Of a DNA stretch of 64,000 bases, positions 274 to 48,612 are shown one piece after another. The stretch spans positions 4,606,001 through 4,670,000 of the forward strand of contig CP163498.1 in the NCBI GenBank assembly GCA_041071465.1. Direction: 5' to 3'. A program made the translations under genes and the position numbers. A model generated the notes under the pieces. It had not been told where the DNA came from. It saw only the letters and a program-made list of their open reading frames with translations, and did no database searches. The stretch is from Pseudomonas putida (lineage in GTDB: Bacteria > Pseudomonadota > Gammaproteobacteria > Pseudomonadales > Pseudomonadaceae). Positions within the stretch are counted from its first letter, which is position 1, and the number at the start of each line of letters is the position of its first letter.

Positions 274-1686
274 TCAGTGCCCCATGGCCAACTTGGCACT
301 CATCTGCCGGCGACGGTAGGCACTGTCACGGCTGGCCAGCCACCAGTACAGCGGTGAAGTAATCGCCAGCCCTACCAGCCACGACAGGTCAGCCCCGTTG
401 ATGTGCTCGGAAATCGGCCCGACATACAGCGGTGTGTTCATGAACGGGATCTGCACCACGATACCCACTGTATAGGCGATCAGCGCCTGTGGGTTGTAAC
501 GGCCGTAGATACCGCCATCGACCTGGAAGATCGACTGGATGTCGTAGTCGCCCTTGTGAATGGCATAAAAGTCGATCAGGTTGATCGCCGTCCACGGCAC
601 CAGCACCACCAGCAGCACCAGCACCATGTCGACGAAGTGGCCGATGAAGTCCGCCGAAGCGAACACCGCTACCACGCTGCAGGCTGCCAGCACGATCAAC
701 GACAGCACGGCGCGGCTCTTGGCGGTAGGGATCCAACGGTAGGCGAAGGTCTGGATCAGGGTGATGATCGACAGCACCGCACCATACAGGTTGAGGGCAT
801 TGTGGCTGATGACGCTGAGCAGAAACAGCACCAGCATGATCGGGCCGAGGGTGCCAGTGGCCAGTTTGACCGCGTCCATGGTGTCCATGCCGGCCGGGAT
901 CGCCAGCACGGCCACGGCGCCGAAAATGAACGACAGGCTCGAACCCAGGGCTGAGCCCAGGTAGGTGGTCCAGAACGTCGAGCTGACTTTCACATCTGCC
1001 GGCAGGTAGCGTGAATAGTCCGACACATAGGGCGCAAAGGCGATTTGCCACAGCGCCGCCAGCGACACGGTGGCCAGCCAGCCAGCCAGGTTGAAGCCGC
1101 CGCGGGTGAGGAAGTCGTCGCTTTGTACATGGGTGAAGATGTAGCCGAAGCCGACCACGATGCCGATGCCCAGCACCCAGGTGCCGATGCGGTTGAGCAC
1201 GTGAATGAAGCGGTAGCCGATGATGCCGATGACGCCCGAGCCCAATGCACCGATGACGATGCCGACCGGTACCGGTACGGCGTCGACCACGCCATGCAGT
1301 GACTTGCCGGCAAGCACGATGTTGGACGCGAAGAAGCCGATGTACATGACGCCGGCGATCACTACCACCAGCAGCGCACCGAGGGTGCCGAACTGGGCGC
1401 GGCTCTGGATCATCTGCGGGATGCCCATTTGCGGGCCCTGGGCCGAGTGCAGCGCCATCAGCACACCGCCGACCAGGTGGCCGACCAGGATGGCGACGAT
1501 GCCCCATACCAGGTTCAGGTGGAACAACTGCACGCCCAGCGCGCCGGTGACGATGGGTAGCGGCGCGATGTTGCCGCCGAACCACAGTGTGAACAGATCC
1601 CTTACCTTTCCATGGCGGTCTTGCGGGGGCACATAGCCGATCGTGTGTTTTTCTATCAGGGGTGCCGAATTGGCTGCACTGGTCAT
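274..1686 (-). CDS. NCS1-family cytosine/purine-type permease
   Basis: A 470-residue polytopic inner-membrane protein, hydrophobic almost throughout, of the nucleobase:cation symporter-1 family (imports cytosine, purines, hydantoin, thiamine and similar compounds). Family signatures include RDLFTLWFGGNIAPLPIVTGA near the N-terminus and a QMGIPQMIQSRAQFG loop. It is a close paralogue of the permease at 15058-16464; the two align along their whole length. I start at 1686 (MTSAANS) because TTGGAGTC lies just upstream; an in-frame ATG at 1713 lacks a good ribosome-binding site. It lies outside the catabolic island and has no clear copy of the operator found there, so co-regulation is uncertain. 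Substrate unknown. Confidence 0.9.
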   Translation of the reverse strand: MTSAANSAPLIEKHTIGYVPPQDRHGKVRDLFTLWFGGNIAPLPIVTGALGVQLFHLNLVWGIVAILVGHLVGGVLMALHSAQGPQMGIPQMIQSRAQFGTLGALLVVVIAGVMYIGFFASNIVLAGKSLHGVVDAVPVPVGIVIGALGSGVIGIIGYRFIHVLNRIGTWVLGIGIVVGFGYIFTHVQSDDFLTRGGFNLAGWLATVSLAALWQIAFAPYVSDYSRYLPADVKVSSTFWTTYLGSALGSSLSFIFGAVAVLAIPAGMDTMDAVKLATGTLGPIMLVLFLLSVISHNALNLYGAVLSIITLIQTFAYRWIPTAKSRAVLSLIVLAACSVVAVFASADFIGHFVDMVLVLLVVLVPWTAINLIDFYAIHKGDYDIQSIFQVDGGIYGRYNPQALIAYTVGIVVQIPFMNTPLYVGPISEHINGADLSWLVGLAITSPLYWWLASRDSAYRRRQMSAKLAMGH

Positions 1687-1988
1687 GACTGACTCCAAGG
1701 CAAGGTAGGGCATCGGGAGCTGCCCGGGGGCGTGCCGGCGATGGGCGACGCGTTCTTGTTGGAGCGATGATGCGGGGCGCGGGGATAACGAGAAATTAGT
1801 AAATATGTACCCATAAACCTTAAAAAACCTAAGGCTGACAAAAGCTTAAGCGGGGGACGGTAGCAAGGAGGGTGCCAGCAGGCGGGAAGGCTTGGGATAG
1901 AGGGGGTGAGCCCTTTGCCCGTAGCAAGTGGTGGGCTTTGCTGGTGCACCATGCCCATTTTCAGGGCAGCTGAATGGTTGCCAGTAAT

Positions 1989-6218: not shown

Positions 6219-7390
6219 TTAGCGAAAACCCGCCACGATCCCTTTGCGCTCTTCGAGCAAACGGTGGTTATCGGCGGTGTCCTTGTCCCCCAACCGGATA
6301 CCGTCCACCTCGCGCTGCGGGTCTGACCAGTAAGGTAGCCGGACCGTATCCAGTCTGAAGGCGGTCATGACGGTATACAATTTTGGTCCGTCCGCTGGCT
6401 CATGAGCGTAGCCATGGCCATAGGCAAACGGACCGCTTGCGTTATCATGTGCCCCCCTAAAAGGTGGCCGATTTCATGGGCAAAGGTGAATCTCCCGACC
6501 CCGATGCAGCGCACGTTTACTACGGTGAATGCAGTCTCGGCGCTGGCGCCGATCTCACCGGCAAATCCACAGCTCGTGTTGGCGTTGTCACGTAGCAAAA
6601 CCACCACGTCGGCCTTCAAGGTGTCTCTCATATCATGGACTTCGTCCATGTAACCGTCATCGATCTTCATGAGCCTGTCCAAATCCCAGTTCGGACTGAA
6701 TGACTGCTCGTAGTCCAGTGGGAACACGTCTGCAAGTTCCAGCGAAAGATCGATTCCGCTTTCGACGAAGGTCTGGTTCGACTCCTCGATGGCCAGATGA
6801 GCCATTGCTCTTAAGTCTTCGCTGGCTTCGTCAGCCTGACGCGAAGCGACAACCAGTACCCGAATAGTGGCATGGCCCGGCTGGTAAGGCGCTATTGCGA
6901 CATGTTGGCGGGGGCCGAGCATTGCCCCACTTGGTATTGACGGATCGTGGTCGGGAGGCAGCTTCGCTGCGTCGATCTTGCTCAGTACCGTTGCATCCCC
7001 ACTGGGAAGGAGGCTGTAAGCCTGGCCATCGCGGCGGATGATTCCGCTAACTCGGTTGCTGGAGCGGATCAGAATGATGCTGTTCAGGGCGGCCTTGAGC
7101 GAACCGTTTGCTGCAGGGGCGGCACTCTCAGCGATGAGAGTGCCATGCCAGGCAATCGTGCCGTCTGGCAGCGTATGGACTGCTATCCGGTCTGCCAGGA
7201 GACGCCCCTCGCCGGGAATTACAAGGCTCAGGCGCTGGGTGTCCGTATCAATGCTCTGTGGATTGATGCGCACCTGCCACTGTTCGGGGATCCACGCCGC
7301 CCTGGTAGCCTGCACTGGCGGGTTGATGGTCGAACAGGCAGCTAGCGTTGTCGTTAGCAGCAGGCACAGGAGGCGATTCCAGATCTTCAT
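6219..7390 (-). pseudogene. Lipoprotein zinc metallopeptidase, frameshifted inside the active-site motif
   Basis: The product starts at 7390 (GGAGTG upstream) with a lipoprotein signal (LLLTTTLAACS, lipidated Cys about residue 19). The reading frame runs to HEIGHLLGGHM and then leaves frame at a six-C run (6452-6457 on the plus strand), ending at 6365. Adding one base restores HEIGHLLGGAHD, exactly the HExxHxxGxxHD zinc motif of metzincin-type peptidases. The frame then continues with GYAHEPADG and a Met-turn-like YTVMTAF to TAA at 6219, giving 390 residues. So the conserved protein is a cell-envelope zinc protease, broken here by a one-base deletion that may be a sequencing error. Stands alone between two minus-strand genes. 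Confidence 0.85.
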
Positions 7391-7473: not shown

Positions 7474-8037
7474 TCAGCGAATGAAGTGCACCTTGCCGGT
7501 GTCGTCATTGCCCATGTATATGCCATACACCCCGGCTTGGCGTTCAAGGATATAGCGCTCGAGAATCTGCCGGATCGCCGGGTAGTAGATTTGATCCCAG
7601 GGGATTTCATCCGGTTCGAAGAACTTGTAAGCCAGGGTCTCCGGCCCGTACTGCCCGGTCTCTTCGGTGACGCTGGCGCGGAAGATGATGTACACCTCGC
7701 TGATTTTCGGCACGCTGAAGATCGAATAGGGTGAGACGATGTCCGCACGAACGCCGGTTTCTTCCCACACTTCGCGCAATGCCGCCTGCTCGGTGGTTTC
7801 CCCAGCCTCCATGAACCCGGCGGGTAAAGTCCAGGTGCCCGGCCGCGGCGGGATGGCGCGTTGACACAGCAGGTACTTGCCATCGCGCTCGATGATGCAG
7901 CCGGCGATGATCTTCGGGTTGATGTAATGGATGTAGCCGCAGCCGGTGCAGTGCAGGCGTTCATGGGTGTCGCCTGTGGGAACGCCCCGGGCCAGTTCCG
8001 TGGTGCAGTGCGGGCAGTAGCGCGGGGCGTTGGGCAT
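7474..8037 (-). CDS. NUDIX hydrolase with N-terminal zinc ribbon
   Basis: A 187-residue protein. Four cysteines (C8, C11, C30, C33) form a zinc ribbon, followed by a Nudix domain with the full box (GFMEAGETTEQ..., then REVWEETGV). Such proteins hydrolyse nucleoside-diphosphate-linked compounds, often ADP-ribose, NADH or FAD-type substrates. Its ATG is 2 bp after the GntR gene stop, so it is the last gene of the catabolic operon. A role in cleaning up damaged flavin or nicotinamide cofactors would fit the company of a flavin monooxygenase, but that is inference. Confidence 0.88.
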   Translation of the reverse strand: MPNAPRYCPHCTTELARGVPTGDTHERLHCTGCGYIHYINPKIIAGCIIERDGKYLLCQRAIPPRPGTWTLPAGFMEAGETTEQAALREVWEETGVRADIVSPYSIFSVPKISEVYIIFRASVTEETGQYGPETLAYKFFEPDEIPWDQIYYPAIRQILERYILERQAGVYGIYMGNDDTGKVHFIR

Positions 8038-8039
8038 GA

Positions 8040-8792
8040 TCAGCGGCCTATGCGGGGTTCCTTCAGGGCCAGGGGCTCGACAATGTCGCGCACCTTGGCG
8101 TTGTCATCCTGCTTCTGGCGCAGGTAGTCCAGGGCCACCTTGGCGGCGGCGCGGACGTGGTCGACCGAGGCCTGGTGGGCCACCAGTGGGTCGCCCCCCT
8201 TGATCGCCTCGACGATCTTTTCCATTTCGCGGTTGCTGGCACCACGGCGGTTTTCCTGCGACACCGAGGTGGCGCGCAGGTAGCTGATGCGGGCCTGCAA
8301 CTGGCGCAGCTGCTGCGCCGCCACCTGGTTGCCGGAGCCTTCCAGCAGCACATCGTAAAAGCCTTGTACCGAATCCAGCACCTGTTGCAGCTCGCCTTCT
8401 TCCAGTGCTTCGCGGTTGACCTCCAGCGCGCGCTCCAGAGCACGGATGTCCTTGGCCTTGGCGTTGAGGGTGAACAGCTGCACGATCAGGCCTTCGAGCA
8501 CACAGCGCAGCTCGTAGATGTCGCGGGCGTCTTCCAGGGTAATGATGGCCACGCGCGGGCCTTTGGCGTCGGCGAATTCCACCAGGCCTTCGGACTCCAG
8601 GTGGCGCAGGGCTTCACGCACCGAAGTACGGCTGACGCCCAAGCGGTCGCAGAGGTCGCGCTCGACCAGGCGGTCGCCTGGCAGCAGGTGAAAGTTCATG
8701 ATCGCGGCGCGCAGCTTGTCGAGCACGATTTCGCGCAGGGTAACGGGGTTGCGGTTGACCTTGAAGCTGTCGTCGAGTGGCTGGCGTTTCAT
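8040..8792 (-). CDS. GntR-family (FCD subfamily) transcriptional regulator
   Basis: A 250-residue protein. The N-terminal GntR winged helix (about residues 15-85) includes LPGDRLVERDLCDRLGVSRT and SVREALRHLESEGLVE. The C-terminal all-helical FCD domain (about 90-235) binds the effector. Several metal-binding histidines usual in FCD domains look replaced (FYDVLLEG where FH is common), so effector binding may be metal-independent. It sits inside the catabolic operon between the decarboxylase-like gene and NUDIX. FCD regulators bind short palindromes of the TGGTnnACCA type, and such sites occur at 12874, 14798 and 14976. It is therefore the likely repressor of the island. Confidence 0.92.
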   Translation of the reverse strand: MKRQPLDDSFKVNRNPVTLREIVLDKLRAAIMNFHLLPGDRLVERDLCDRLGVSRTSVREALRHLESEGLVEFADAKGPRVAIITLEDARDIYELRCVLEGLIVQLFTLNAKAKDIRALERALEVNREALEEGELQQVLDSVQGFYDVLLEGSGNQVAAQQLRQLQARISYLRATSVSQENRRGASNREMEKIVEAIKGGDPLVAHQASVDHVRAAAKVALDYLRQKQDDNAKVRDIVEPLALKEPRIGR

Positions 8793-8880
8793 CAGGTGCG
8801 CTCTTTATGAGGCTGTTGCGCCAACATCGCGGAACGCCCCGAACCGAGGCTTTCCATGCAGTGGTTCGAACAGCCCGTTG

Positions 8881-9270
8881 TTAACGGGTTGACTCCGCAT
8901 CGGCTTCGGCAAACGCTTCACGGGCCAGGCGGAAACTGTCCACCGCCGCGGGTACGCCGCAATAAATGCCGACCTGGAGCAGGATCTCGCGAATCTGTTC
9001 ACGGCTCAGGCCATTGCGCAATGCGCCGCGAATGTGCAGCTTGAGCTCGTGGGGCCGGTTGAGCGCGGAAATCATGGCCAAGTTTATCATGCTGCGCTCT
9101 TTGAGCGAGAGGCCTTCGCGGCCCCAGACGTGGCCCCAGCAGTATTCGGTGACCAGCTGCTGCAACGGCTGGGTGAACGCGTCGGCGTTCTGGATCGAGC
9201 GGTTGACGTAGTCCTCGCCCAGCACCTGGGTGCGGATCTTCAGGCCTCTTTCGTACGTTTCATTGCTCAT
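8881..9270 (-). CDS. Carboxymuconolactone decarboxylase-family protein
   Basis: A 129-residue protein, the usual length of gamma-carboxymuconolactone decarboxylases. It carries the family pattern EYCWGHVWGREGLSLKERSM, then ALNRPHELKLHIRGALRNG and IYCGVPAAVDSF. The position commonly occupied by His before IYxGVPA is Gln here (LLQVGIYCG), which may shift its chemistry. Start at 9270 is chosen for GGAG upstream; the frame opens to 9303. Lying in the operon with a ring-opening monooxygenase, it probably decarboxylates or isomerises a ring-cleavage product rather than working in the protocatechuate pathway, none of whose genes are nearby. Confidence 0.88.
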   Translation of the reverse strand: MSNETYERGLKIRTQVLGEDYVNRSIQNADAFTQPLQQLVTEYCWGHVWGREGLSLKERSMINLAMISALNRPHELKLHIRGALRNGLSREQIREILLQVGIYCGVPAAVDSFRLAREAFAEADAESTR

Positions 9271-9358
9271 GTGCAGTACTCCGGAATAAAACAGGGGCCG
9301 CAACCGAGGGTGAGACGATAGCGCGGCCCCTAAAACAGGGGATCGTTGTTGGCGTACG

Positions 9359-9844
9359 TCAACCCAAGGGCGGCAGGGCGCCGAGTTTGCCTTTGTGGTA
9401 AACCATCGGCGTTACCGGCTGCTCGGGCAGCACCAGGTTCTTCACCGCCCCGACGATGATCGCGTGGTCACCGCCGTCATACTCGCGCCACAGTTCGCAC
9501 TCGATGATCGCCGTGGCCTTGGCCAGCAGCGGGTTGCCAAGCTCGCTCAGGTGCCACTCGACACCCTTGGCCTTGTCCTTGCCCTTGCCGGCGAAAGCAT
9601 AGGCTTCGGCGGTTTGCTCGGCGGACAGCAGGTGTATCGCGAACTGCTTGCTGTCACGCAAAACCGGGTAGGTGTCGGAGGCATAGTTAGGGCAGAACAG
9701 CACCAGTGCCGGGTCGATCGACAGCGCGCTGAAGGCGCTGGCGGTGATGCCGACGATGGCGCCGTCGGCGTCCAGGGTGGTGACTACCGTGACGCCGGAC
9801 GGGAAGGAGCCCATCACGTCTTTGTAGATGCCGGGTTCGATCAT
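9359..9844 (-). CDS. Flavin reductase (RutF/HpaC-like), copy 1
   Basis: A 161-residue flavin reductase-like domain protein (GSFPSGVTVVTT, GITASAFSALSIDPALVLFC, YRxGGDHAI-type EYDGGDHAIIVG). These enzymes use NAD(P)H to make free FMNH2 or FADH2 for a partner monooxygenase. It is the same length as, and strongly similar to, the reductase at 14256-14741, so the island encodes two. It is placed between the aldehyde dehydrogenase and the decarboxylase-like gene, 13 bp after the former. Its partner is probably the LLM monooxygenase at 13140. Confidence 0.9.
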   Translation of the reverse strand: MIEPGIYKDVMGSFPSGVTVVTTLDADGAIVGITASAFSALSIDPALVLFCPNYASDTYPVLRDSKQFAIHLLSAEQTAEAYAFAGKGKDKAKGVEWHLSELGNPLLAKATAIIECELWREYDGGDHAIIVGAVKNLVLPEQPVTPMVYHKGKLGALPPLG

Positions 9845-9857
9845 CTCGTGCTACCTC

Positions 9858-11339
9858 CTAACGCATCACAAACGGGTCGGGCATCGGTGCGGTGGACAGG
9901 TTGATCCACACGGTCTTCAGCTCGGTATAGGCCAGCACCGAATCGATGCCGCTCTCGCGGCCGTAGCCGCTGTTTTTGAAGCCACCGATCGGCGCCATGG
10001 CCGACACGGCGCGGTAGGTGTTGACCCAGATGATCCCCGAGCGCACGTCACGGGCCAGGCGGTGGGCACGGCCCAGGTCGCGGGTCCAGATGCCGGCAGC
10101 CAGGCCGAACTGGGAGTCGTTGGCGATGGCCAGGGCTTCTTCCTCGGTCTTGAAGCGGATCACCGCGGCGACCGGGCCGAAGACTTCCTCCTGCATGATG
10201 GTCATCGAGTTGCTGTCGCACTCGAACAGGGTCGGTTCGTAGAACCAGCCGTCACCTTCAACCTCGGCACGCTTGCCGCCCAGGTGCAGCTTGGCGCCCT
10301 CGGCCTTGGCCGCAGCCACCAGGCCTTCGACCACGGCCAGTTGCTGTGCGGTGGCCATTGGGCCCATTTCGCTGGCGTCGTCCTGCGGGTTGCCGATGCG
10401 GATACGCTTGGCGCGGGCAATCAGGCGCTCGACGAATTCGTCGAAGATTTCGTCCTGCACCAGCAGGCGCGAACCGGCCACGCAGCTTTGCCCGGAGGCT
10501 GCATAGATGCCGGCCACGGCACCGTTGATGGCACTGTCCAGGTCGGCGTCGGCGAAGATGATGTTCGGCGACTTGCCGCCCAGCTCCAGCGACAGCTTGG
10601 CGAAGTTCTCGGCACTGCTGTGCACCACGTGGCGGGCGGTGGCAGCGCCGCCGGTGAAGGCGATCTTGCGCACCAGCGGGTGGCGGGTGAGCGCTGCGCC
10701 GGTGCTTGGGCCGTAACCGGTGACCACATTGACCACGCCGGCCGGGAAGCCGGCTTCGAGGGCCAGGCGGGCCAGCTCAAGGATGGTCGCCGAGGCGTGC
10801 TCGGACGGTTTGAGCACGATGGTGTTGCCGGCGGCCAGGGCCGGGGCCAGCTTGATCGCGGTGAGGTACAGCGGGCTGTTCCAGGGGATGATCCCGGCCA
10901 CCACGCCGATAGGCTCGTGCACGGTGTAGGCGAACAGGTCGGGCTTGTCCAGCGGCAAGGTGCCGCCTTCGAGTTTGTCGGCCAGGCCTGCGGTGTAGTG
11001 GAAGAACTCTGGCAGGTAGCCAACCTGGCCGCGGGTTTCGCGGATCAGCTTGCCGTTGTCACGGCTTTCCAGCTGGGCCAGGTGTTCCTTGTTCTCGGCA
11101 ATCAGGTCGCCCAGGCGACGCAGCAGCTTGCCGCGTGCGGTGGCGGTGATGCTGCGCCACTCTTTGCTGTCGAAGGCACGCTGGGCGGCCTGTACGGCCA
11201 GCTCCACATCGGCTTCGTCGGCGTCGGGCAGTTGCGCCCAGGCCTGGGCGGTGGCCGGGTTGAGGCTGTCGAAGGTCTTGCCGCTCTGGGCATCGCGCCA
11301 TTGGCCGTCGATGCACATCTGGAAACGAACGAGGGTCAT
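9858..11339 (-). CDS. NAD(P)-dependent aldehyde dehydrogenase
   Basis: A 493-residue protein covering the full aldehyde dehydrogenase fold. The catalytic Glu is in LELGGKSPNII (about residue 250) and the nucleophile Cys in GQSCVAGSR (about 284); IIPWNSPL and the C-terminal PIGGFKNSGYGRE block are typical. Its ATG overlaps the hydrolase stop (ATGA), showing translational coupling. In the island it would oxidise an aldehyde or hydroxylactone released by ring cleavage to an acid, as TgnC does in trigonelline breakdown; the actual substrate is unknown. Confidence 0.93.
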   Translation of the reverse strand: MTLVRFQMCIDGQWRDAQSGKTFDSLNPATAQAWAQLPDADEADVELAVQAAQRAFDSKEWRSITATARGKLLRRLGDLIAENKEHLAQLESRDNGKLIRETRGQVGYLPEFFHYTAGLADKLEGGTLPLDKPDLFAYTVHEPIGVVAGIIPWNSPLYLTAIKLAPALAAGNTIVLKPSEHASATILELARLALEAGFPAGVVNVVTGYGPSTGAALTRHPLVRKIAFTGGAATARHVVHSSAENFAKLSLELGGKSPNIIFADADLDSAINGAVAGIYAASGQSCVAGSRLLVQDEIFDEFVERLIARAKRIRIGNPQDDASEMGPMATAQQLAVVEGLVAAAKAEGAKLHLGGKRAEVEGDGWFYEPTLFECDSNSMTIMQEEVFGPVAAVIRFKTEEEALAIANDSQFGLAAGIWTRDLGRAHRLARDVRSGIIWVNTYRAVSAMAPIGGFKNSGYGRESGIDSVLAYTELKTVWINLSTAPMPDPFVMR

Positions 11340-12169
11340 GCAACAATCCCCTTGGCGGATTCGGTGAGGGTGCGGGCTTGCGCAAGGAAGTCCAGCAGCA
11401 TCTTGTTGACTTCACGGGGTGCTTCCACCGGCATCATATGCCGTTGCTCGGCGAGGACCACACTGTGTGCGCCTGGAATGCTGGCGGCGAGCTGGCGGGT
11501 CATGGCCGGGGTGGAGCCAGCGTCGAGTTCGCCGGTGGCGATCAGCGTCGGCACCTGGATGCTGCCCAGGTCATTGGCGCGATACATGTCCTGGGTGGCG
11601 AACAGCGAATAAGTGGTGTGGTAGCCCTGCGGGTCGTTACTCGCCAGTACCTGGCGAATGGCGGCGACCTGCGCCGGGTTGGCTGCCTTGTATTCACGGC
11701 TGAACCAGCGGTCCAGGGCTGCATCGACGTTGGCATCGGGGCCCAGCTCCGCCGCCTGGGCCGCGCGGGCAATCACGCCAGCGCTTTGCTCCGGGGTGCG
11801 GTTGAACACGCTGTTGAGCACCACCAGGGCAGTCAGGCGCTGCGGGTGGTTAAGGGCAAATGCTCGGGCAACCAGGCCGCCCATGGAGAAGCCGATCACG
11901 GTGGCCTGGGCAATTTGCAGGTGGTCAAGCAGTTCGGCGAGCTGGTCGGCATAGCCTTCCAGCGGTGTGTCGGCGGCCGGTACGCGGCTTTGACCGTGGC
12001 CGAGCATGTCGTAGGCGATGACGCGGTAGTCGTTGGCCAAGCCAACGAACTGACCGCCCCACATTTCCTTGTTCAGGCCCACGCCGTGGATCAGAACCAC
12101 GGGTTGGCCCTGGCCGACGGCCAGGTAGCTGGTGCCGGCAGGTGTGCGTTCAGCGACAGGCTGAATCAT
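11336..12169 (-). CDS. Alpha/beta-hydrolase fold enzyme (probable amide or ester hydrolase)
   Basis: A 277-residue protein of normal alpha/beta-hydrolase size. Oxyanion region LIHGVGLNKEMW, nucleophile elbow GFSMGG (Ser about 94), acid in ATGELDAGSTP and catalytic His in EQRHMMPVE near 250 make a complete triad. Start at 12169 is set by AGGAG eight bases upstream; the frame opens to 12214. RutD, the trigonelline amidohydrolase TgnD and the vitamin B6 enamide hydrolases belong to this fold. A carbamate/enamide hydrolase role after ring opening is therefore a reasonable inference, but PcaD-like lactonase activity is equally possible. Confidence 0.88.
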   Translation of the reverse strand: MIQPVAERTPAGTSYLAVGQGQPVVLIHGVGLNKEMWGGQFVGLANDYRVIAYDMLGHGQSRVPAADTPLEGYADQLAELLDHLQIAQATVIGFSMGGLVARAFALNHPQRLTALVVLNSVFNRTPEQSAGVIARAAQAAELGPDANVDAALDRWFSREYKAANPAQVAAIRQVLASNDPQGYHTTYSLFATQDMYRANDLGSIQVPTLIATGELDAGSTPAMTRQLAASIPGAHSVVLAEQRHMMPVEAPREVNKMLLDFLAQARTLTESAKGIVA

Positions 12170-12237
12170 GGAGGGCGCTCCTTGAAGGTCGGGCGCGGCG
12201 GGTAAGCACGCCACGCCCCGGCCCGTCTTGGTTGTTG

Positions 12238-12834
12238 TTATTGAGCGTTGGCTTTTTCGGCAGCCAGTTCTTCCAGGTCGATGTAGCGGTTGCCGATGCG
12301 CGGATGCAGGCGGCCACCATCGGCTGCGCCCAGGACCACGACGATTTCGTCGGCGCGCGGGGCGTCTTCGATCTGCATCTCCAGGGTGATGTAGTGCGAG
12401 CGCAGGCCTTCGTCGTCCTTCTGCATCATCGGGATCTGGATCGAGGTGCCTGGGCCGCCGCGCTTGTTGGTGAAGCTCAGGTAGCTCTTGGCCTGTACCG
12501 CTTCGCGGTAGTGGTTGCCGAAGCGCAGGGTGTGGATCACGGCCGAGGCGTGCTCGATTTCGCCGTCGGCGCCGACCACAGCAGCCTTACCGTAGGCTTC
12601 GATCTTGTCGGCACCGCCGATGGCGGCGGTCAGGCGCTCGACCATCAGGGCACCCAGTTCCGAGCAGTTGGCGCGAATTTCCGGCTTCAGATCTTCAACG
12701 AAACCGCGACCGGCCCATGGGTTCTTGATCACGACGGCCAGGCCGACCATGGTCACCGGTTTGTCGGTGGCCTTGCCGCCTTCGATGCGGGTCTCTTCGG
12801 AGTAGGTGACGATCTTGCGGATTTCGAAACTCAT
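12238..12834 (-). CDS. AA_synth (PF06684, formerly DUF1185) family protein of unknown reaction
   Basis: A 198-residue protein beginning MSFEIRKIVTYSEETRIEGG, with TMVGLAVVIKNPWAGRGF and FTNKRGGPGTSIQIPMM, features of the amino-acid-synthesis family (a chorismate-mutase-like fold by structural genomics; reaction not established to my knowledge). The frame runs open to 13221, but that extension would cross the promoter and a REP pair, so 12834 (GGAG upstream) is the start. It is the first gene of the distal operon, directly behind an operator-bearing promoter. Being first in the unit suggests a core enzymatic step. Confidence 0.85.
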   Translation of the reverse strand: MSFEIRKIVTYSEETRIEGGKATDKPVTMVGLAVVIKNPWAGRGFVEDLKPEIRANCSELGALMVERLTAAIGGADKIEAYGKAAVVGADGEIEHASAVIHTLRFGNHYREAVQAKSYLSFTNKRGGPGTSIQIPMMQKDDEGLRSHYITLEMQIEDAPRADEIVVVLGAADGGRLHPRIGNRYIDLEELAAEKANAQ

Positions 12835-12873
12835 GGGTGGCTCCTGGTGAGGGTTATCAGCTCTTGTTGTCTG

Positions 12874-12901
12874 ATGGTATACCATAATATTTGTTGTGCA
12901 A
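12874..12901 (-). promoter_or_regulatory. Promoter with GntR-type operator for the AA_synth operon
   Basis: On the minus strand: -35 TTGCAC (12901-12896), 16-base spacer, -10 TACCAT (12879-12874). The palindrome ATGGTATACCAT (12874-12885) covers the -10. The start point would be about 33 bases before the AA_synth ATG. About 33 bases from the -35 to CAGACA are nearly identical to the promoter at 14798-14825, so both should bind the same regulator, most likely the GntR protein at 8040. No binding data; assignment by family and position. Confidence 0.65.
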
Positions 12902-12968
12902 GAGGTGTCAGGAAATTTCTCTTGCCGGGGGACGAAAGGTGGCCTGATGCCTTGATTTTTGTGGTGTC

Positions 12969-13056
12969 TGCACTGGCCTCTTCGCGGGTAAACCCGCTCC
13001 CACAGGAATACGCGGTCCCTTGTGGGAGCGGGTTTACCCGCGAAGAGGCCAGTGCA
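12969..13056. repeat. REP pair: two 36-base arms in perfect inversion
   Basis: Arm 12969-13004 and arm 13021-13056 are exact reverse complements around a 16-base loop. Each arm itself contains the P. putida REP core CGCGGGTAAACCCGC. The unit separates the two transcription units of the island. Related hairpins occur at 227-262 and 32796-32833. Confidence 0.85.
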
Positions 13057-13062
13057 GGTTTC

Positions 13063-13109
13063 AAAAAAAAGCCCGCTCACGCAGGCCGAAGGGGCCCACG
13101 GGAGCGGGC
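13063..13109 (-). terminator. Rho-independent terminator of the monooxygenase unit
   Basis: Read on the minus strand, GAGCGGGC-type arms (13102-13109 with 13071-13078) enclose a secondary GGGCCCCTTCGGCC loop and are followed by eight T (13070-13063). It lies 31 bases after the LLM gene stop, so monooxygenase plus reductase form their own transcript. Confidence 0.75.
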
Positions 13110-13139
13110 GCGTCCCGCAATGGTTCAGGCAATGGGAAT

Positions 13140-14180
13140 TCAGGCGAAGGCGGGCACCACTTCCTTGATGAACAGCTCCAGCGACTTTTTCTTCTCGGCG
13201 TGGGGCAGGCTGTTGTCGCACCAGAAGCTGAACTCGTCGACGCCGAGCTCCTGGTAGTACTTGATGCGCGCGATGATTTCTTCTGGGGTGCCGATCATGG
13301 TGTTCTTGCGGATGTTCTCCAGCTGGAACGCTGGCACTTCGGCGAACTTCGATTCCGGGCTTGGCTCGAGGAAGCCGTTGACCGGGGTGGTCTTGTTGCC
13401 GAACCAGGCGTCGAAGGTCCGGTAGAAGCGCGAGATGGCCTGGGCACCGACCTTCCAGCCATCCGGTTCGGCTGGGCTGTGCACGTGGGTGTGGCGCAGC
13501 ACCATCAGTTGTGGGCGCGGTACGTTCGGGTTGTTGTCCAGGGCGGCCTGGAACTTGTTCTTCAGGTCCAGGACTTCTTCGTCACCCTTCATCAGTGGGG
13601 TGACCATGACGTTGCAGCCGTTTGCCACTGCGAAGTTATGCGAGTCCGGGTCGCGGGCGGCAATCCACATCGGCGGCGTCGCGTTGAATGGTTTCGGCAC
13701 GCTGGTGGAGGTGGGGAACTTGTAGACTTCGCCGTCATGGGCGTAGTCGCCTTCCCACAGCTTGCGTACCACAGGCACCATCTCACGCAGCGCCTTGCCG
13801 CCGTCGGTGGCCGGCATGCCATTGGCCATGCGGTCGAACTCGAACTGGTAGGCGCCACGGGCCAGGCCCACTTCCATGCGGCCGTTGCTGATCACGTCCA
13901 GCAGGGCGCATTCACCGGCAACGCGGATCGGGTTCCAGAACGGCGCGATAATGGTGCCGGCGCCCAGGCGGATCTTGTCGGTACGTGCGGCCAGGTAGGC
14001 CAGCAGCGGCATCGGGCTTGGCGAAATGGTGTACTCCATGGCGTGGTGTTCGCCGATCCACACGGTGCTGAAACCGCCGTTTTCGGCCATCAGGGTCAGT
14101 TCGGTCAGGTCTTCGAACAGCTGGCGGTGGCTGACCTGTTCATCCCAACGTTCCATGTGCACGAACAACGAAAATTTCAT
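13140..14180 (-). CDS. LLM-class flavin-dependent monooxygenase (luciferase-like)
   Basis: A 346-residue protein with the bacterial-luciferase TIM-barrel pattern: MKFSLFVHMERWDE at the start, VWIGEHHAMEYTISPSP (about residues 40-57), RLGAGTIIAPFWNPIRVAGE, and LARGAYQFEFDRM. Group C flavin monooxygenases use FMNH2 supplied by a separate reductase; RutA, TgnB and the pyridine monooxygenase PyrA open N-heterocyclic rings this way. A reductase gene lies directly upstream on the same transcript (75 bp gap). This is the probable ring-opening enzyme of the island; the substrate is not readable from sequence. Confidence 0.92.
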   Translation of the reverse strand: MKFSLFVHMERWDEQVSHRQLFEDLTELTLMAENGGFSTVWIGEHHAMEYTISPSPMPLLAYLAARTDKIRLGAGTIIAPFWNPIRVAGECALLDVISNGRMEVGLARGAYQFEFDRMANGMPATDGGKALREMVPVVRKLWEGDYAHDGEVYKFPTSTSVPKPFNATPPMWIAARDPDSHNFAVANGCNVMVTPLMKGDEEVLDLKNKFQAALDNNPNVPRPQLMVLRHTHVHSPAEPDGWKVGAQAISRFYRTFDAWFGNKTTPVNGFLEPSPESKFAEVPAFQLENIRKNTMIGTPEEIIARIKYYQELGVDEFSFWCDNSLPHAEKKKSLELFIKEVVPAFA

Positions 14181-14255
14181 GGGGCTTTCCTCAACGCTTG
14201 AAAGGGTCTGGCGCCGGGCAGGGGAGGCGCCAGGGGTGTCGATTCAGAATAGGCT

Positions 14256-14741
14256 TCAGGCAAAGGCCGGCAGGCTGGCCATCCTGCCGCGGCAGTACAC
14301 CATCGGCCGTGGCGCTTGCGCAGGGACAATCAGGTTGTGCACCTTGCCGACCATGATGGCGTGGTCGCCACCTTCATACTCACGCCACAGTTCACATTCG
14401 ATGACTGCGGTGGCGCCGGCCAGGACCGGGTTGCCCAGTTCGCTCAGGGTCCACTCGATGCCGCTGGCCTTGTCCTTGCCCTTCTTGGCGAACGCATAGG
14501 CTTCGGCTTGCTGTTCACCGGACAGCAGGTGAATGGCGAAGCGCTTCTGCTTGATCAGTACCGGGTAGGAGTCGGAGGTGTAGTTGGGGCAGAACAGCAC
14601 CAGCGGCGGGTCCATCGACAGGGAAGAGAAGGCGCTGGCGGTCAGGCCGACGACCGAGCCGTCGTCGTCCAGGGTGGTGATGACGGTAACGCCGGATGGG
14701 AAGGAGCCCAGGACGTTCTTGTAGACGGTTGCGTCGATCAT
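14256..14741 (-). CDS. Flavin reductase (RutF/HpaC-like), copy 2
   Basis: A 161-residue flavin reductase domain protein, paralogous over its full length to 9359-9844 (shared GSFPSGVTV, FCPNYxSDxYPVL, GGDHAI blocks). Start at 14741 follows AGAGGT; the frame runs open to 14825 but that would cross the promoter. First gene of the monooxygenase transcript, so it is the natural reductant source for the LLM enzyme. Why a second reductase is kept in the other transcript is unclear. Confidence 0.9.
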   Translation of the reverse strand: MIDATVYKNVLGSFPSGVTVITTLDDDGSVVGLTASAFSSLSMDPPLVLFCPNYTSDSYPVLIKQKRFAIHLLSGEQQAEAYAFAKKGKDKASGIEWTLSELGNPVLAGATAVIECELWREYEGGDHAIMVGKVHNLIVPAQAPRPMVYCRGRMASLPAFA

Positions 14742-14797
14742 CGGAAGTACCTCTAAAAGGCTGCGGTGGTCCGCGGTTTTTATCATTGATGTGTCTG

Positions 14798-14825
14798 ATG
14801 GTATACCGTAATACCTATTTTGCAA
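14798..14825 (-). promoter_or_regulatory. Promoter with GntR-type operator for the reductase-monooxygenase unit
   Basis: On the minus strand: -35 TTGCAA (14825-14820), 16-base spacer, -10 TACCAT (14803-14798), overlapped by GGTATACC. TCTGATGGTATACCGTAATA (14794-14813) differs from the 12870-12889 copy at one base. Predicted leader of about 50 bases to the ATG at 14741. Confidence 0.65.
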
Positions 14826-14957
14826 GCGGAATTTTCAGCCCTGGTTTTTCACGATGAACGGCTCAAGGCCACGTATATCGTGGTCTTGAGCGGTGAGGTG
14901 GTTTGTCGCAGGGCTTTTGCAAGCGGATCAGCGGGCGTTTTTTACTGCGGATCAGTG

Positions 14958-14988
14958 TTGTCAAAAGTTTGGAATACCATAATATGGT
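14958..14988 (+). promoter_or_regulatory. Promoter with operator for the divergent NCS1 permease
   Basis: -35 TTGTCA (14958-14963), 16-base spacer, -10 TAATAT (14980-14985). The inverted repeat ACCATA-A-TATGGT (14976-14988) covers the -10 and shares TACCATAATAT with the site at 12880-12890. A repressor bound here would block the polymerase directly. This third copy ties the permease to the same regulon. Leader about 65 bases. Confidence 0.6.
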
Positions 14989-15057
14989 CCGCAGCTGAGA
15001 GGCCGCCTAGATGCGGTTTCCTTACAAAGATAAAAACGACCTTTCGAGCTGAAAACC

Positions 15058-16464
15058 ATGTCCCAACCGTCATCGCAACACCAGTTTGTCGAGAATCACA
15101 CGGTCGATTACGTTCCACCTGCCGAGCGCCACGGGAAGGCGCGCGACCTGTTCACCCTCTGGTTCAGCACCAACATTGCGCCACTGCCCATCGTCACCGG
15201 CGCCATGGTGGTCCAGGTGTTCCACCTGAACCTGCTGTGGGGGTTGATCGCCATCGTGCTGGGCCATCTGGTTGGGGGCGTGGTCATCGCCCTGGCCTCT
15301 GCGCAGGGACCGCAGCTGGGCATTCCACAGATGGTGCAGAGCCGTGGTCAGTTTGGCCGTTACGGCGCGTTGCTGATCGTGTTCTTCACCGCGTTGATCT
15401 ATGTCGGCTTCTTTATTTCCAACATTGTCCTGGCAGGCAAGACCATCCACGGCATCGCCCCGAGCGTGCCGATGCCCGGCGCCATTGTGATCGGCGCCCT
15501 GAGCGCCACCGCCATTGGTGTGATCGGTTACCGCTTCATCCACATCCTCAACCGTATCGGTACCTGGGTGATGGGTTCGGCCTTGCTGGCCGGTTTCATC
15601 ATGATGTTCATCCAGGACCTGCCGGCCGACTTCTTCAGCCGCGGCGCGTTCAACCTGTCCGGTTTCATCGCCACCGTGTCGCTGGGCACCATCTGGCAGA
15701 TCAGTTTCTCGCCTTACACCTCCGACTACTCGCGCTACCTGCCGCGTGAAGTGGGTATTGCCAGGCCGTTCTGGGCTACCTATTTCGGCGCCACCCTGGG
15801 CACCATCCTGTGCTTCAGCTTTGGTGCGGTGGCAGTGCTGTGCGTGCCGCAAGGTACCGACGCGATGGACGCGGTGAAGCAGGCCACCGGCTGGCTGGGC
15901 CCGGTCCTGATGGTGCTGTTCCTGCTCAACATCATCAGCCACAACGCCCTTAACCTGTATGGCGCGGTGCTGTCGATCGTCACGGCGATCCAGACCTTCA
16001 TGGCCGAGTGGACGCCGAGCATCAAGGTGCGGGTGATCCTGGCGTCGGTGATTCTGGTTGGCTGCGCGATGGTTGCTCTGAACGCTTCTGCGGACTTCAT
16101 CGGCCACTTCATCGGCCTGATCCTGGCGCTGCTGCTGGTGCTGGTGCCGTGGGCTTCGATCAACCTGATCGACTTCTACCTGATCAAGAAGGGGCAGTAC
16201 GACATCGCCTCGATCTTCAGTGCAGACGGTGGCATCTATGGCCGCTTCAACCACCACGCGATCATTGCCTATGCTTGCGGCATCCTGGTGCAGTTGCCGT
16301 TTGCCAATACGTCGTTGTATGTGGGGCCGTATTCCAACATCGTCGAAGGGGCGGACTTGTCCTGGCTGTTCGGGCTGATTGTCACGGTGCCGCTGTATTA
16401 CTGCCTGGCGACTCGGGGCAAGGCTGGCGAGAAGACGGGGCGGGTTGTGAGTGTCAATGACTGA
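15058..16464 (+). CDS. NCS1-family permease, island copy
   Basis: A 468-residue polytopic membrane protein, full-length paralogue of 274-1686 (shared RDLFTLWF, NIAPLPIVTGA, GIPQMxQSR, FASPYxSDYSRYLP-like PYTSDYSRYLP, SHNALNLYGAVLSI). NCS1 carriers import nucleobases, hydantoins, and pyridine or thiazole vitamins by ion symport. Divergent from the catabolic genes with a shared intergenic region bearing two operator copies, so it is almost certainly the uptake system for the island's substrate. Confidence 0.92.
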   Translation: MSQPSSQHQFVENHTVDYVPPAERHGKARDLFTLWFSTNIAPLPIVTGAMVVQVFHLNLLWGLIAIVLGHLVGGVVIALASAQGPQLGIPQMVQSRGQFGRYGALLIVFFTALIYVGFFISNIVLAGKTIHGIAPSVPMPGAIVIGALSATAIGVIGYRFIHILNRIGTWVMGSALLAGFIMMFIQDLPADFFSRGAFNLSGFIATVSLGTIWQISFSPYTSDYSRYLPREVGIARPFWATYFGATLGTILCFSFGAVAVLCVPQGTDAMDAVKQATGWLGPVLMVLFLLNIISHNALNLYGAVLSIVTAIQTFMAEWTPSIKVRVILASVILVGCAMVALNASADFIGHFIGLILALLLVLVPWASINLIDFYLIKKGQYDIASIFSADGGIYGRFNHHAIIAYACGILVQLPFANTSLYVGPYSNIVEGADLSWLFGLIVTVPLYYCLATRGKAGEKTGRVVSVND

Positions 16465-16482
16465 TGGAGCGTCGTTGCTGTA

Positions 16483-16507
16483 GCCGGGGCCGCAACGCGG
16501 CCCCGGC
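16483..16507. terminator. Bidirectional terminator between permease and chemoreceptor
   Basis: GCCGGGGCCGC (16483-16493) pairs perfectly with GCGGCCCCGGC (16497-16507) around AAC, between two convergent stops (16464 and 16517). No long T-run. Confidence 0.65.
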
Positions 16508-16516
16508 AGTTTCAGA

Positions 16517-18142
16517 TCAGACCTTGAACTGCGCCACCATGCCGTTCAGATCCACCGCCAACCGCGACAAATCCTGTGCCGCCGCACTGGTCTGGTTCGC
16601 CCCTGCCGACGTCTGCATCGCCAGGTCGCGAATGTTCACCAGGTTACGGTCCACCTCCCGCGCCACCTGTGCCTGCTCCTCCGAAGCACTGGCAATCACC
16701 AGGTTGCGCTGATTGATCGACGCAATCGCCTCGGCAATCACTTCCAACGCCACCCCGGCGCCTTGCGCCACCTCCAACGTGCCGGTGGCACGCCCCTGGC
16801 TGCTGTGCATCGCCGTCACCGCGCGTTCGGTACCGTTCTGGATACCGGCAATCATCTGCTCGATCTCTGCCGTCGACTGCTGGGTGCGGTGGGCGAGGGC
16901 GCGGACCTCGTCGGCCACCACGGCAAAGCCACGGCCTGCCTCGCCAGCGCGAGCCGCTTCGATGGCGGCGTTCAACGCCAGCAAGTTGGTCTGCCCGGCA
17001 ATCGCACCAATCACATCCAGCACGCGGCTGATTTCGTTGGCATTGGTGGCCAGCTGTTCGATCTCGGCCGAGGTACCGGTCACGTCAGCCACCAGGTGCT
17101 GGATGGACGCCAGTGCCTGGTTGACCCGGTCGCGGCCGTCGCGGGTAGTCTGGTCGGCGCCTTTCGAGGCGTCGGCGGTGCTGACCGCATTGTTCGCCAC
17201 TTCCTCGACCGCTGCAGTCATCTGGTTGACGGCCGTCGCCGCCTGGTCGATTTCTGCGCTCTGCTGGTGCAGGCCACGGCTGGTGTCCTCAGTGACCGTG
17301 TGCAGCTCTTCCGAGGCCGAGGCCAGTTGGTCCGACGAAGCCGCGATCTTGCGCAAGGTGTCGCGAAGGCTGTCTTGCATACGGCCCAAGGCGCGCAGCA
17401 GCAAGGCTGGCTCGTCCTGGCCGATCACGCGGATTTCCCGGGTGAGGTCGCCGGTGGCCACACGCTCGGCGACAGCCACGGCATCGGCCAGCGGCACAAC
17501 GATACTGCGGGTAAGCACGGTGGCAATGGCGGCGAGCGCAAGCATGATCACCAGCAACGAGACGATGATGGCAGTGAATGCCTCGTCGGCCACATCGCTG
17601 CTGCGCTGCGAGGCATCTTCGGCACCCTTGCTGTTGTAGGCGATCAACGCGGTCAAGGCCTTCATCATGCCGTCGGCGCGCTGCGTGAGTGGGCCGCCGA
17701 TCTGCTGCTTGGCCTCGCTCATGCGGCCAGCAGCAATGTCCTGCAGCACCCTCACTTGCAGGTCGAAATACTGCTGGTAGGCGTCGTTGAACGTGTTGAA
17801 CAGGGCACGGTCGTCGGCCGCGATGATGGTATCGGCGTAGGCTTTCAACCCATCCTTGAGCTCGGCATTGATGCCATCGAGCAGCTGCAGGTTGCGTGTG
17901 CGTTCGTCGGGGTTGTCGTCCAGCGCGGCGCGCAGGGTGACGGCGCGAGCGCGCCCGAGGTTGCTGCTGATGTCACCCAACGCCACCACGGCGGGCATCC
18001 AGGTGACCCGGATCTCGTCGGTAGCCGTGTCCATCTGGCGGGTTTCGTAGAGTGCGATAAGGCCCATGAACAGGACCAGGATGCCCAACAGGGCGAATAC
18101 GCTGGCAGCGCGAATGCCGATCTTCATATTCCGTAACTGCAT
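16517..18142 (-). CDS. Methyl-accepting chemotaxis protein with four-helix-bundle sensor
   Basis: A 541-residue receptor: TM1 (about 12-32), periplasmic four-helix-bundle ligand domain (about 35-188), TM2 (about 190-212), HAMP (about 213-265), and signalling domain with the conserved hairpin tip region [17 protein letters not shown] and [16 protein letters not shown]. Start at 18142 is set by AAGGAG. It directs flagellar swimming through CheA/CheW. It is convergent with the island permease, so it may sense the same compound; P. putida chemoreceptors for pyrimidines and nicotinate are known, but I cannot match this one to them. Confidence 0.92.
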
Positions 18143-18331
18143 GGAATGCTCCTTGACGGTGGCGTGCAGGCCTCAGGAGCTTGGACGGAAAAGCCGGAAC
18201 ACCGGTAAGGCGCCAGGCTCTTGATGCGCTGCGGATTGTGTTGTGTGCCTCACCCTCTTGCATACTTTTTGATTTGAATGATGCCATATGGCCATCATTG
18301 TTGAACAGTCATTCAATGTAACGAAATAATT

Positions 18332-18362
18332 GACAAAACCGTCGTATTTTGACGGTTTTGTC
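18332..18362. terminator. 12-bp-stem hairpin after the NDH-2-like gene
   Basis: GACAAAACCGTC (18332-18343) pairs exactly with GACGGTTTTGTC (18351-18362). It lies 13 bases beyond the minus-strand stop at 18375 and within the chemoreceptor's upstream region. Probably a terminator; on the plus strand it is followed by AGGTTTTTG. Confidence 0.55.
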
Positions 18363-18374
18363 AGGTTTTTGCCG

Positions 18375-47716: not shown

Positions 47717-48610
47717 TCATACGCGCCTTTTTTGGGTTGAAGGTGCTGGAGCTTCCTCGAACGCTTCTGGGGGCGGTGGCGCCGCTCGGACGTTGAACAG
47801 GCGGCAGATGCCGTACCAGCAGATGGCGACGGTGAGGTTATAGGGGAACAGCACGGCCCAGAACGGCAATTGCCAGTTCTTTTTGCCCTGCATTTCACCG
47901 GGCTCACCGGTTCGCCAAGGAGCGTAGTGGCGCCACGCTTCGGCTGGGGTCAGGCAGATGGCGTGCAGCGGCTTGTGCCACCAGTTGGGCTCGCCGGGCG
48001 GGGGGAGTTTGTCCGGGCCGTGAGCCATGAAATGGCGGAGGTATTCCCAGACTTCGGCGACGTGCTTCACGCCGGGTTCGGTGGGTTCGTTGCTGTCGAC
48101 CCAGAGGCAGTCTTTTTGGTGGAGGCTGCCATCTGCCCGGCGAGGGGCGAAGGCGAGGGCGTAGCTGGTGCTGAACGATGAGCCGCCGTTTTCGGTGCGT
48201 TTGAAAAGGCCTCCGCCCGTGTTGCTCCACTCAAAGACAAATAGCTTACTCAACCGCTGATAGTAAATTTTCTGAGTTGATCGGTTGAAGCATAAGCTTG
48301 ATAAGCGTTTTATGAAATATATTCGATAGGCTAAAAACGGGAGGAAGATGAAAGGTCCAATTACTGTGAGGATGATAAAGGTATAGCTAAAGGTGTATGG
48401 GTCCCATGCTTCGCTGGATAGTAGGTATGGGTAGAAGAAGATAATCGACGCGACAATCATTGCGCAGTAAATCTTTCCCATAAATACAGAGTCTGTTACC
48501 CAGGGGTTTCGCAGGGTTAAAGTGTTACTTGATAAGTTTAATAGCTGTCCGCCAATAGCAGGTTTGTGCCCGGAGTCTGTGGTTGGATTGAATAGCCAGA
48601 TGGTCGCCAT
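47717..48610 (-). CDS. DUF6708-like membrane protein, probable immunity partner of the T6SS effector
   Basis: A 297-residue protein with two N-terminal hydrophobic helices (about 45-60 and 78-100) and one near 260-280, and a cytoplasmic-looking middle that includes EVWEYLRHFMAHGP and PPPGEPNWWHKPLHA, features I associate with DUF6708. It begins 2 bases after the effector stop, i.e. co-transcribed and last. Inner-membrane immunity proteins are what a pore-forming effector needs. Its 5' half (48230-48610) is AT-rich while the 3' half is GC-rich, suggesting that the part recognising the toxin was exchanged. Immunity function is inferred from position. Confidence 0.72.
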   Translation of the reverse strand: MATIWLFNPTTDSGHKPAIGGQLLNLSSNTLTLRNPWVTDSVFMGKIYCAMIVASIIFFYPYLLSSEAWDPYTFSYTFIILTVIGPFIFLPFLAYRIYFIKRLSSLCFNRSTQKIYYQRLSKLFVFEWSNTGGGLFKRTENGGSSFSTSYALAFAPRRADGSLHQKDCLWVDSNEPTEPGVKHVAEVWEYLRHFMAHGPDKLPPPGEPNWWHKPLHAICLTPAEAWRHYAPWRTGEPGEMQGKKNWQLPFWAVLFPYNLTVAICWYGICRLFNVRAAPPPPEAFEEAPAPSTQKRRV

Positions 48611-48612
48611 GC

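Follow-up and report, generated by a model that had tools for sequence, protein, structure and literature searches.

A conserved tgn-like catabolic cluster of Pseudomonas putida, probably serving trigonelline or a near N-methylpyridinium carboxylate

Trigonelline breakdown releases methylamine, and in Acinetobacter baylyi it reportedly proceeds through the proteins TgnA to TgnF, as described by Perchat et al. in 2018. The pyr pathway of Arthrobacter opens an unmethylated pyridine ring, and in Arthrobacter sp. 68b the pyr genes for pyridine follow the same chemical logic as that proposed for the cluster analyzed here, an eleven-gene block at positions 7474-18142 of a 64-kb stretch of the Pseudomonas putida genome (hereafter the window; positions 4,606,001-4,670,000 of the single 6.32-Mb contig, CP163498.1, of assembly GCA_041071465.1). 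Some Pseudomonas may grow on trigonelline; among the papers listed by searches of a partial literature collection, none dealt with genes for its breakdown in this genus, and none gave data on growth of the genus on this compound. In the tgn system ring opening is assigned to TgnA and TgnB (PMC8269262, in the excerpt available), and TgnF is described as homologous to the AA_synth protein, formerly DUF1185 (PMC7913881, likewise in excerpt).

All eleven genes that the first-pass annotation had placed in this block were recovered in the open reading frame (ORF) list and by Pfam, at the same coordinates and with the same domain classes (Table 1). The cluster is a tgn-like regulon variant, conserved and of a known kind, which is neither tgn proper nor an unprecedented pathway. 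Its homologies point to trigonelline, or a near N-methylpyridinium carboxylate, as the most likely substrate of a tgn-like catabolic regulon in Pseudomonas, a reading to which we assign a probability of about 0.65. The observed basis for it consists of gene content, homology, clade membership, operator sharing and linkage to gmaS, and the points counted for a trigonelline-type substrate are the operator, the NCS1 permease, the gene set, the gmaS link and 20 shared oxygenase residues.

The reference for comparison was the locus of A. baylyi DSM 14961 (L110; a strain other than ADP1), which was equated with the tgn locus by gene content and was found in a genome scan using the A. baumannii oxygenase as query, the best 80 of 547 confirmed loci being retained. 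This locus encodes, in order, GntR, AA_synth, an alpha/beta hydrolase, a reductase with a Nudix-like C-terminal half, an LLM flavin-dependent oxygenase, an aldehyde dehydrogenase (ALDH), an NCS1 permease, a porin, a succinate semialdehyde dehydrogenase (SSADH) and a CMD-family protein. BLASTP matches to it were obtained for 10 of the 11 window genes, with identities of 24-74%, and for the chemoreceptor no match was found in this locus. In both loci the LLM oxygenase, flavin reductase, ALDH, alpha/beta hydrolase and AA_synth genes are clustered, and AA_synth, CMD, NCS1 and GntR share the locus. The first-pass annotation had regarded AA_synth, CMD and NCS1 uptake as unpublished content for such a pathway and had proposed a new substrate on that ground; because all three occur in the A. 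baylyi locus, with TgnF itself an AA_synth homologue, a trigonelline-like substrate is likelier than a wholly new one. The order of events it envisaged, with opening of an N-heterocycle by the LLM enzyme and a reductase, aldehyde oxidation, hydrolysis and NCS1 uptake, remains plausible by homology, while the novelty of the gene set does not stand.

The two loci also differ. The single reductase of L110 ends in a Nudix-like half, whereas the window cluster has two reductases and a separate NUDIX protein, which aligns with residues 173-302 of the L110 reductase at 24% identity over 142 aa (E 5e-6); this BLASTP evidence for a Nudix-like half is weak and has no Pfam match beside it. The porin and SSADH (TgnE) present in L110 are absent from the window cluster, and the SSADH of this genome closest to that of A. 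baylyi (64%) is encoded far away, at C1:2404703. Three departures keep the cluster from being classed as tgn proper: its oxygenase lies outside the A. baylyi TgnA-type clade, TgnE is not in the locus and reductase and Nudix are not fused. Comparison with characterised loci, as the first-pass annotation had suggested, favors tgn by gene content and operator and departs from it in the oxygenase clade, and disfavors rut by gene content and scores. On the window side, linkage to gmaS and an operator-bearing ribBA set the system apart from tgn, and these two features, the gmaS linkage and the operator shared with a ribBA/ABC transporter locus, are new here.

The GntR/FCD regulator and a palindromic operator appear to be shared with tgn. 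Allowing up to four mismatches, the palindrome TATTATGGTATACCATAATA was detected in 20/20 window-type loci, 67/80 tgn loci and none of six loci of a paralogous type (L009-type, described below), while its reversed control matched 0, 1 and 0, respectively. It has two mismatches in L110 and none in most of the Acinetobacter loci shown. Both long gaps of the window cluster contain this operator, and within the window the core (at most three mismatches) yielded six matches at four places, against 0.35 expected; two of the six are the opposite strand of the palindrome and one lies at 6366. Searching the whole genome for the 15-mer core, with at most two mismatches, gave seven matches at just two loci, the cluster and a ribBA/ABC transporter locus (reversed control, two). 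The operator had no exact match in viral contigs. Five sigma-70-like sites were found in the region where 1.9 were expected, and the overlap of two such sites with operators (Table 1) would be the arrangement that a repressor needs. The GntR/FCD protein is the candidate binder. The first-pass view of a self-contained island is right only in part, given that the predicted regulon reaches ribBA and an ABC transporter, SSADH is far off and the gmaS operon lies about 12 kb away.

The second operator locus carries a ribBA whose product is 86% identical to that of the ribBA near the cluster in locus L078, together with the ABC transporter, and each of the two is preceded by an operator. This genome further encodes a RibB and another RibBA (58%). 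An FMN riboswitch (110 bits) was detected at the RibB locus (L202) only, and none was found at the operator-bearing ribBA (L199, L200) or at the other RibBA (L201); since the latter also has none, riboswitch absence is not special to the operator-bearing gene. A RibBA motif was present in 7 of 35 genus loci scanned, a set that includes nine second stretches from the same genomes and four L009-type loci. The operator at ribBA, these RibBA motifs, and the riboflavin kinase and NUDIX genes of an Arthrobacter cluster discussed below suggest a dedicated flavin supply, in which the NUDIX protein might, as a guess, hydrolyze FAD to FMN. Near the ribBA/ABC transporter locus, L199:1129-1181 (minus strand) also gave an Rfam terC hit (RF03067, 47.7 bits).

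The gene here called gmaS matches TIGR03105 with 675 bits (cut-off 469.6) and has its end 4.3 kb outside the window, on the side of position 1; it is followed by GATase, GXGXG and glutamate-synthase-like genes and one for an ammonium transporter, the mgs gene names being tentative and based on domains. From this context it is a candidate methylamine-assimilation gene, presumably encoding GMAS. Among 149 sampled genomes of the genus, 40 carry gmaS, and 38 of these also carry a window-type LLM oxygenase, compared with 46 of the 109 gmaS-less genomes; in 30 of the 38 the two genes are on one contig, and in 22 they lie within 20 kb. Such linkage is rare among tgn loci (gmaS in 3/80, mgsC in 4/80). 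Because genus and tgn loci are related, Fisher and binomial values for this linkage overstate independence. The association fits release of methylamine from the substrate. A second NCS1 permease gene (Table 1), possibly for an accessory transporter, separates the gmaS-mgs-amt operon from the cluster; near this gene no operator match with up to three mismatches was found.

Conservation of the block was assessed in stretches fetched from 22 genomes of the genus. FR1 and GntR (Table 1) occur in 17 of the 22, in every case together with AA_synth, hydrolase, ALDH, NUDIX and LLM; 14 of the 17 have CMD, and three have an Acinetobacter-like SSADH. For the other five (G011, G018, G057, G059, G066), the stretch fetched has the LLM gene without AA_synth, hydrolase, ALDH, CMD, GntR or NUDIX. 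By these counts, the clustering exceeds chance. In relatives whose LLM is below about 90% identical, other genes often lie between the oxygenase and the portion from AA_synth to NUDIX. The two sets of genus stretches, of 20 and 15, were picked non-randomly by rank and contig position. Window-type LLM oxygenases were found in 84 of the 149 genomes, including G046 (partial) and G080 (two pieces); an initial tally of 86 had included two genomes with the L009 type only. In G080 the oxygenase appears as two overlapping pieces (C1:1585075-1586107), 5 kb from gmaS.

Oxygenase phylogeny was inferred from 33 rows, with the L009 type as chosen outgroup and, from candidates L043-L048, only L046 taken in. 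The window oxygenase falls in a clade of enzymes from Pseudomonas and Actinobacteria (support 100/99), and the tgn oxygenases form a separate clade with those of Mesorhizobium and Paraburkholderia (support 100/98). The window and tgn clades have 20 diagnostic residues in common relative to the L009 type, whereas the two remaining pairs of types have 4 and 8, a difference that partly reflects mere phylogeny. The window-type CMDs (15 rows) nest beside the tgn CMDs of Acinetobacter, Lampropedia and Xanthomonas (SH-aLRT 97), as do the SSADHs of three genus loci beside the tgn SSADHs of the same three genera (SH-aLRT 99); the latter loci (L083, L091, L094) have an in-cluster SSADH 69-72% identical to that of Acinetobacter. 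CMD trees comprise 131 columns with some long branches, making CMD placement less certain than that of SSADH, and CMD counts across tgn loci include weak, probably non-orthologous CMDs (about 46%). Relative to A. baumannii, the Xanthomonas tgn locus L119 has 85% identity in LLM, 69% in SSADH and 73% in CMD, and the window 48% in LLM and 75% in CMD. The window-type cluster is a mosaic by these trees, because CMD and SSADH nest with tgn while the oxygenase sits apart.

The proposed order of reactions follows tgn and pyr chemistry; each reaction, the substrate, the repressor and the parts given to CMD, Nudix and gmaS are predicted from the features above. The NCS1 permease, and perhaps the co-regulated ABC transporter elsewhere, would import an N-methylpyridinium carboxylate, likeliest trigonelline, and FR1 and FR2 would supply reduced flavin mononucleotide (FMNH2) to the LLM oxygenase, which would convert the ring to an N-methylformamido (N-formyl) enamine aldehyde. 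ALDH would oxidize this aldehyde to a diacid, and the alpha/beta hydrolase would split the diacid into formate, methylamine and formylsuccinate. CMD would aid loss of CO2 from formylsuccinate to give succinate semialdehyde, which a dehydrogenase coded elsewhere would convert to succinate, while the gmaS-mgs operon just outside the window would assimilate the methylamine. The role in decarboxylation fits because CMD is retained in the tgn loci of Acinetobacter and in the majority of window-type clusters, and the inspected actinobacterial cluster does not have it; since three of 17 relatives do not have it either, CMD is perhaps helpful rather than required. GntR/FCD would repress three cluster promoters and the ribBA/ABC transporter promoters through one palindrome, so that oxygenase induction would be accompanied by extra flavin made through co-regulated ribBA.

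Several observations weigh against this assignment. The oxygenase falls outside the A. baylyi clade, making a different substrate possible, and its nearest relatives include actinobacterial enzymes, of which the one inspected cluster (Arthrobacter dokdonellae) has no CMD, orthologous NCS1 or operator match. The hydrolase is just 34% identical to that of L110 and may differ in substrate. SSADH lies in the cluster in only three of the 17 relatives, and CMD is missing from three. As for methylamine, gmaS was not found, at the threshold applied, in 46 of the 84 genomes with the LLM gene, the name of TIGR03105 is type III glutamate-ammonia ligase and not GMAS, and the mgsC frame of this genome (L085:11443-12423, plus strand) encodes 326 aa, versus 440-445 aa in four relatives, and looks like a broken gene or an assembly error.

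The mosaic also permits a tentative and distinctly less probable account, in which Pseudomonas and Actinobacteria have in common a separate TgnA-family branch whose substrate is some ring compound different from trigonelline. In Pseudomonas this branch would have been joined with tgn-related CMD, SSADH, NCS1 and operator in a regulon that has a link to methylamine assimilation and, by way of an additional ribBA, controls its own riboflavin synthesis.

A more specific alternative, which we consider unlikely, is that another N-methylated pyridinium, such as homarine, N-methylnicotinamide or N-methylisonicotinate, enters the pathway and yields the same downstream products. In its favor are the nesting of CMD and SSADH with tgn while LLM, hydrolase and reductases have diverged, and some Caballeronia (L127, L129, L131), in which two oxygenase clusters side by side point to substrate diversification; the operator and NCS1 in common with tgn argue against it. 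So does the negative scan for a tgn-clade oxygenase in the 149 genus genomes (threshold 1e-130, run with no positive control): should the genus use trigonelline, the window-type oxygenase would thus be the foremost candidate for acting on it. The two different TgnA-family clusters of Caballeronia are arranged back to back, their LLM proteins being 59% and 84% identical to that of A. baumannii, which suggests different substrates.

Comparably improbable is a pathway in which pyridine or a simple alkylpyridine is opened as an unmethylated ring, with CMD, NCS1 and operator kept from a tgn ancestor. The top named oxygenase relatives are from Pseudomonas, and the best named matches from other groups, among 120 listed of 1730, come from Actinobacteria (Mycolicibacterium, 79%). 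The A. dokdonellae plasmid pDCT5 (L052) carries a 76% identical LLM with NUDIX, reductase, ALDH, hydrolase, GntR, two copies of AA_synth and an NCS1-family permease. Unlike the window, this cluster includes riboflavin kinase, tautomerase and SSADH and no CMD, its reductase is fused to a SnoaL-like domain, its NCS1 is non-orthologous (26%), and no operator match was found in it at up to five mismatches. An unmethylated substrate would, however, leave the gmaS linkage unexplained; CMD in 14/17 relatives suggests a carboxylated intermediate, and an oxygenase present in 84/149 genomes is common, whereas growth on pyridine is, to our knowledge, rare in Pseudomonas. A Rut-type pyrimidine, or a hydantoin or pyrazine, pathway is very improbable and was rejected, since, although RutD-like, RutF-like and NCS1 domains are present, NCBIfam scores fall far under the curated cut-offs (RutF 62-63 bits versus 254.75; RutD 93 versus 238.5) and the eleven proteins of the block, genes beyond being only partly scanned, have no RutB (isochorismatase) or RutC (RidA) Pfam domain.

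Should the trigonelline reading be correct, it would provide a likely trigonelline/N-methylpyridinium pathway for an oxygenase found in more than half of the sampled genomes of the genus, with a bearing on plant betaine use by plant-associated bacteria. It would also suggest that CMD-family proteins perform decarboxylation in tgn-type pathways, and would describe a catabolic repressor that raises flavin supply along with a reduced-flavin-dependent oxygenase.

Table 1. Genes and predicted operator cores of the P. putida window (window positions; percentages are identities to A. baylyi L110 proteins unless stated).
Feature	Positions	Strand	Evidence and remarks
Second NCS1 permease	274-1713	-	63% to cluster NCS1
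NUDIX hydrolase	7474-8037	-	Pfam E 2.7e-23; N-terminal Zn_ribbon_Nudix domain
GntR+FCD regulator	8040-8792	-	Pfam; 37% to GntR
CMD-family protein	8881-9303	-	Pfam; 74% to CMD; likelier start ATG at 9270
Flavin reductase 1 (FR1)	9359-9844	-	Pfam; 40% to reductase
ALDH, TgnC-like	9858-11339	-	Pfam E 3.7e-175; 52%
Alpha/beta hydrolase, TgnD-like	11336-12169	-	Pfam, NCBIfam; 34%; top NCBIfam score PcaD, under the PcaD cut-off
AA_synth (DUF1185), TgnF-like	12238-12834	-	Pfam E 7.1e-72; 55%; PDB relatives 2qtp, 3byq
Operator core TGGTATACCATAATA	12875-12889	+	AA_synth/LLM gap; zero mismatch; overlapped by sigma-70-like site 12911-12884 (minus)
LLM flavin-dependent oxygenase, TgnA-like, separate clade	13140-14180	-	Pfam Bac_luciferase E 1.3e-54; 48%
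Flavin reductase 2 (FR2), TgnB reductase part	14256-14741	-	Pfam Flavin_Reduct; 39% to reductase; adjoins oxygenase
Operator core TGGTATACCGTAATA	14799-14813	+	Upstream of FR2; zero mismatch
Operator core TGGAATACCATAATA	14970-14984	+	Upstream of NCS1; one mismatch; overlapped by sigma-70-like site 14958-14985
NCS1 permease	15058-16464	+	Pfam E 5.8e-46; 54% to NCS1; divergent from oxygenase operon
4HB/HAMP/MCP chemoreceptor	16517-18142	-	Pfam

Gene starts were checked for seven of the eleven genes. Intergenic gaps are operon-like (-4 to 88 bp) except for two, of about 305-317 and 316 bp, and this spacing suggests two minus-strand transcription units, FR2-LLM and AA_synth-hydrolase-ALDH-FR1-CMD-GntR-NUDIX, with NCS1 divergent from FR2. 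An AlphaFold2 (AF2) model of the LLM oxygenase (mean pLDDT 93), placed by Foldseek in the luciferase family, confirms the predicted luciferase fold and nothing beyond it. A role of the AA_synth protein in amino acid synthesis was set aside, its basis being the family name and the title of a structure paper (PMC2954203, in the part available); for the relative HcdD, efforts to detect stimulation failed, according to the excerpt of PMC7913881.

The chemoreceptor adjoins NCS1 in several near relatives, and its membership in the cluster is unproven. The idea that it senses trigonelline was dropped as unsupported, the receptor being of the 4HB and not the dCache type; for the dCache domains of amine sensors, the excerpt of PMC10104139 reports no binding of trigonelline.

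The same genome carries the paralogous L009 cluster (C1:5049001-5068000), also found in 4 of 148 other sampled genus genomes. It resembles the window block in LLM (45%), AA_synth (56%), ALDH (50%), hydrolase (38%) and CMD (59%, at C1:5063519) and differs from it in having a PucR-like regulator (named by eye), a ProX/choline-type ABC transporter, a class-III aminotransferase, SSADH and a flavin reductase with a long C-terminal half; L009-type loci have no operator. The transporter hints at another betaine-like substrate.

In plasmid records searched by tblastn, oxygenase relatives were mostly about 43-55% identical and included, at 48%, a 3.97-Mb A. baumannii entry designated a plasmid and, at 50%, pSymA of Sinorhizobium meliloti 1021; trigonelline genes of S. 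meliloti are placed on pSym by a title (Goldmann 1991) cited in PMC6297676, as excerpted.

At gathering scores, Rfam yielded zero RNA elements in the window or in L085. At 18330-18364, where the space between the start of the chemoreceptor gene and the end of its neighbor lies, there is a strong stem resembling a bidirectional terminator (15 and 13 pairs). The AA_synth/LLM gap (12835-13139) contains an inverted repeat of the GTGGGAGCGGGTTTACCCGCGAAG-like type, which we take to resemble P. putida repetitive extragenic palindromic (REP) sequences. Finally, positions 48001-50000 have a G+C content of 0.529, versus 0.59-0.67 in other 2-kb bins, and this stretch was possibly acquired.

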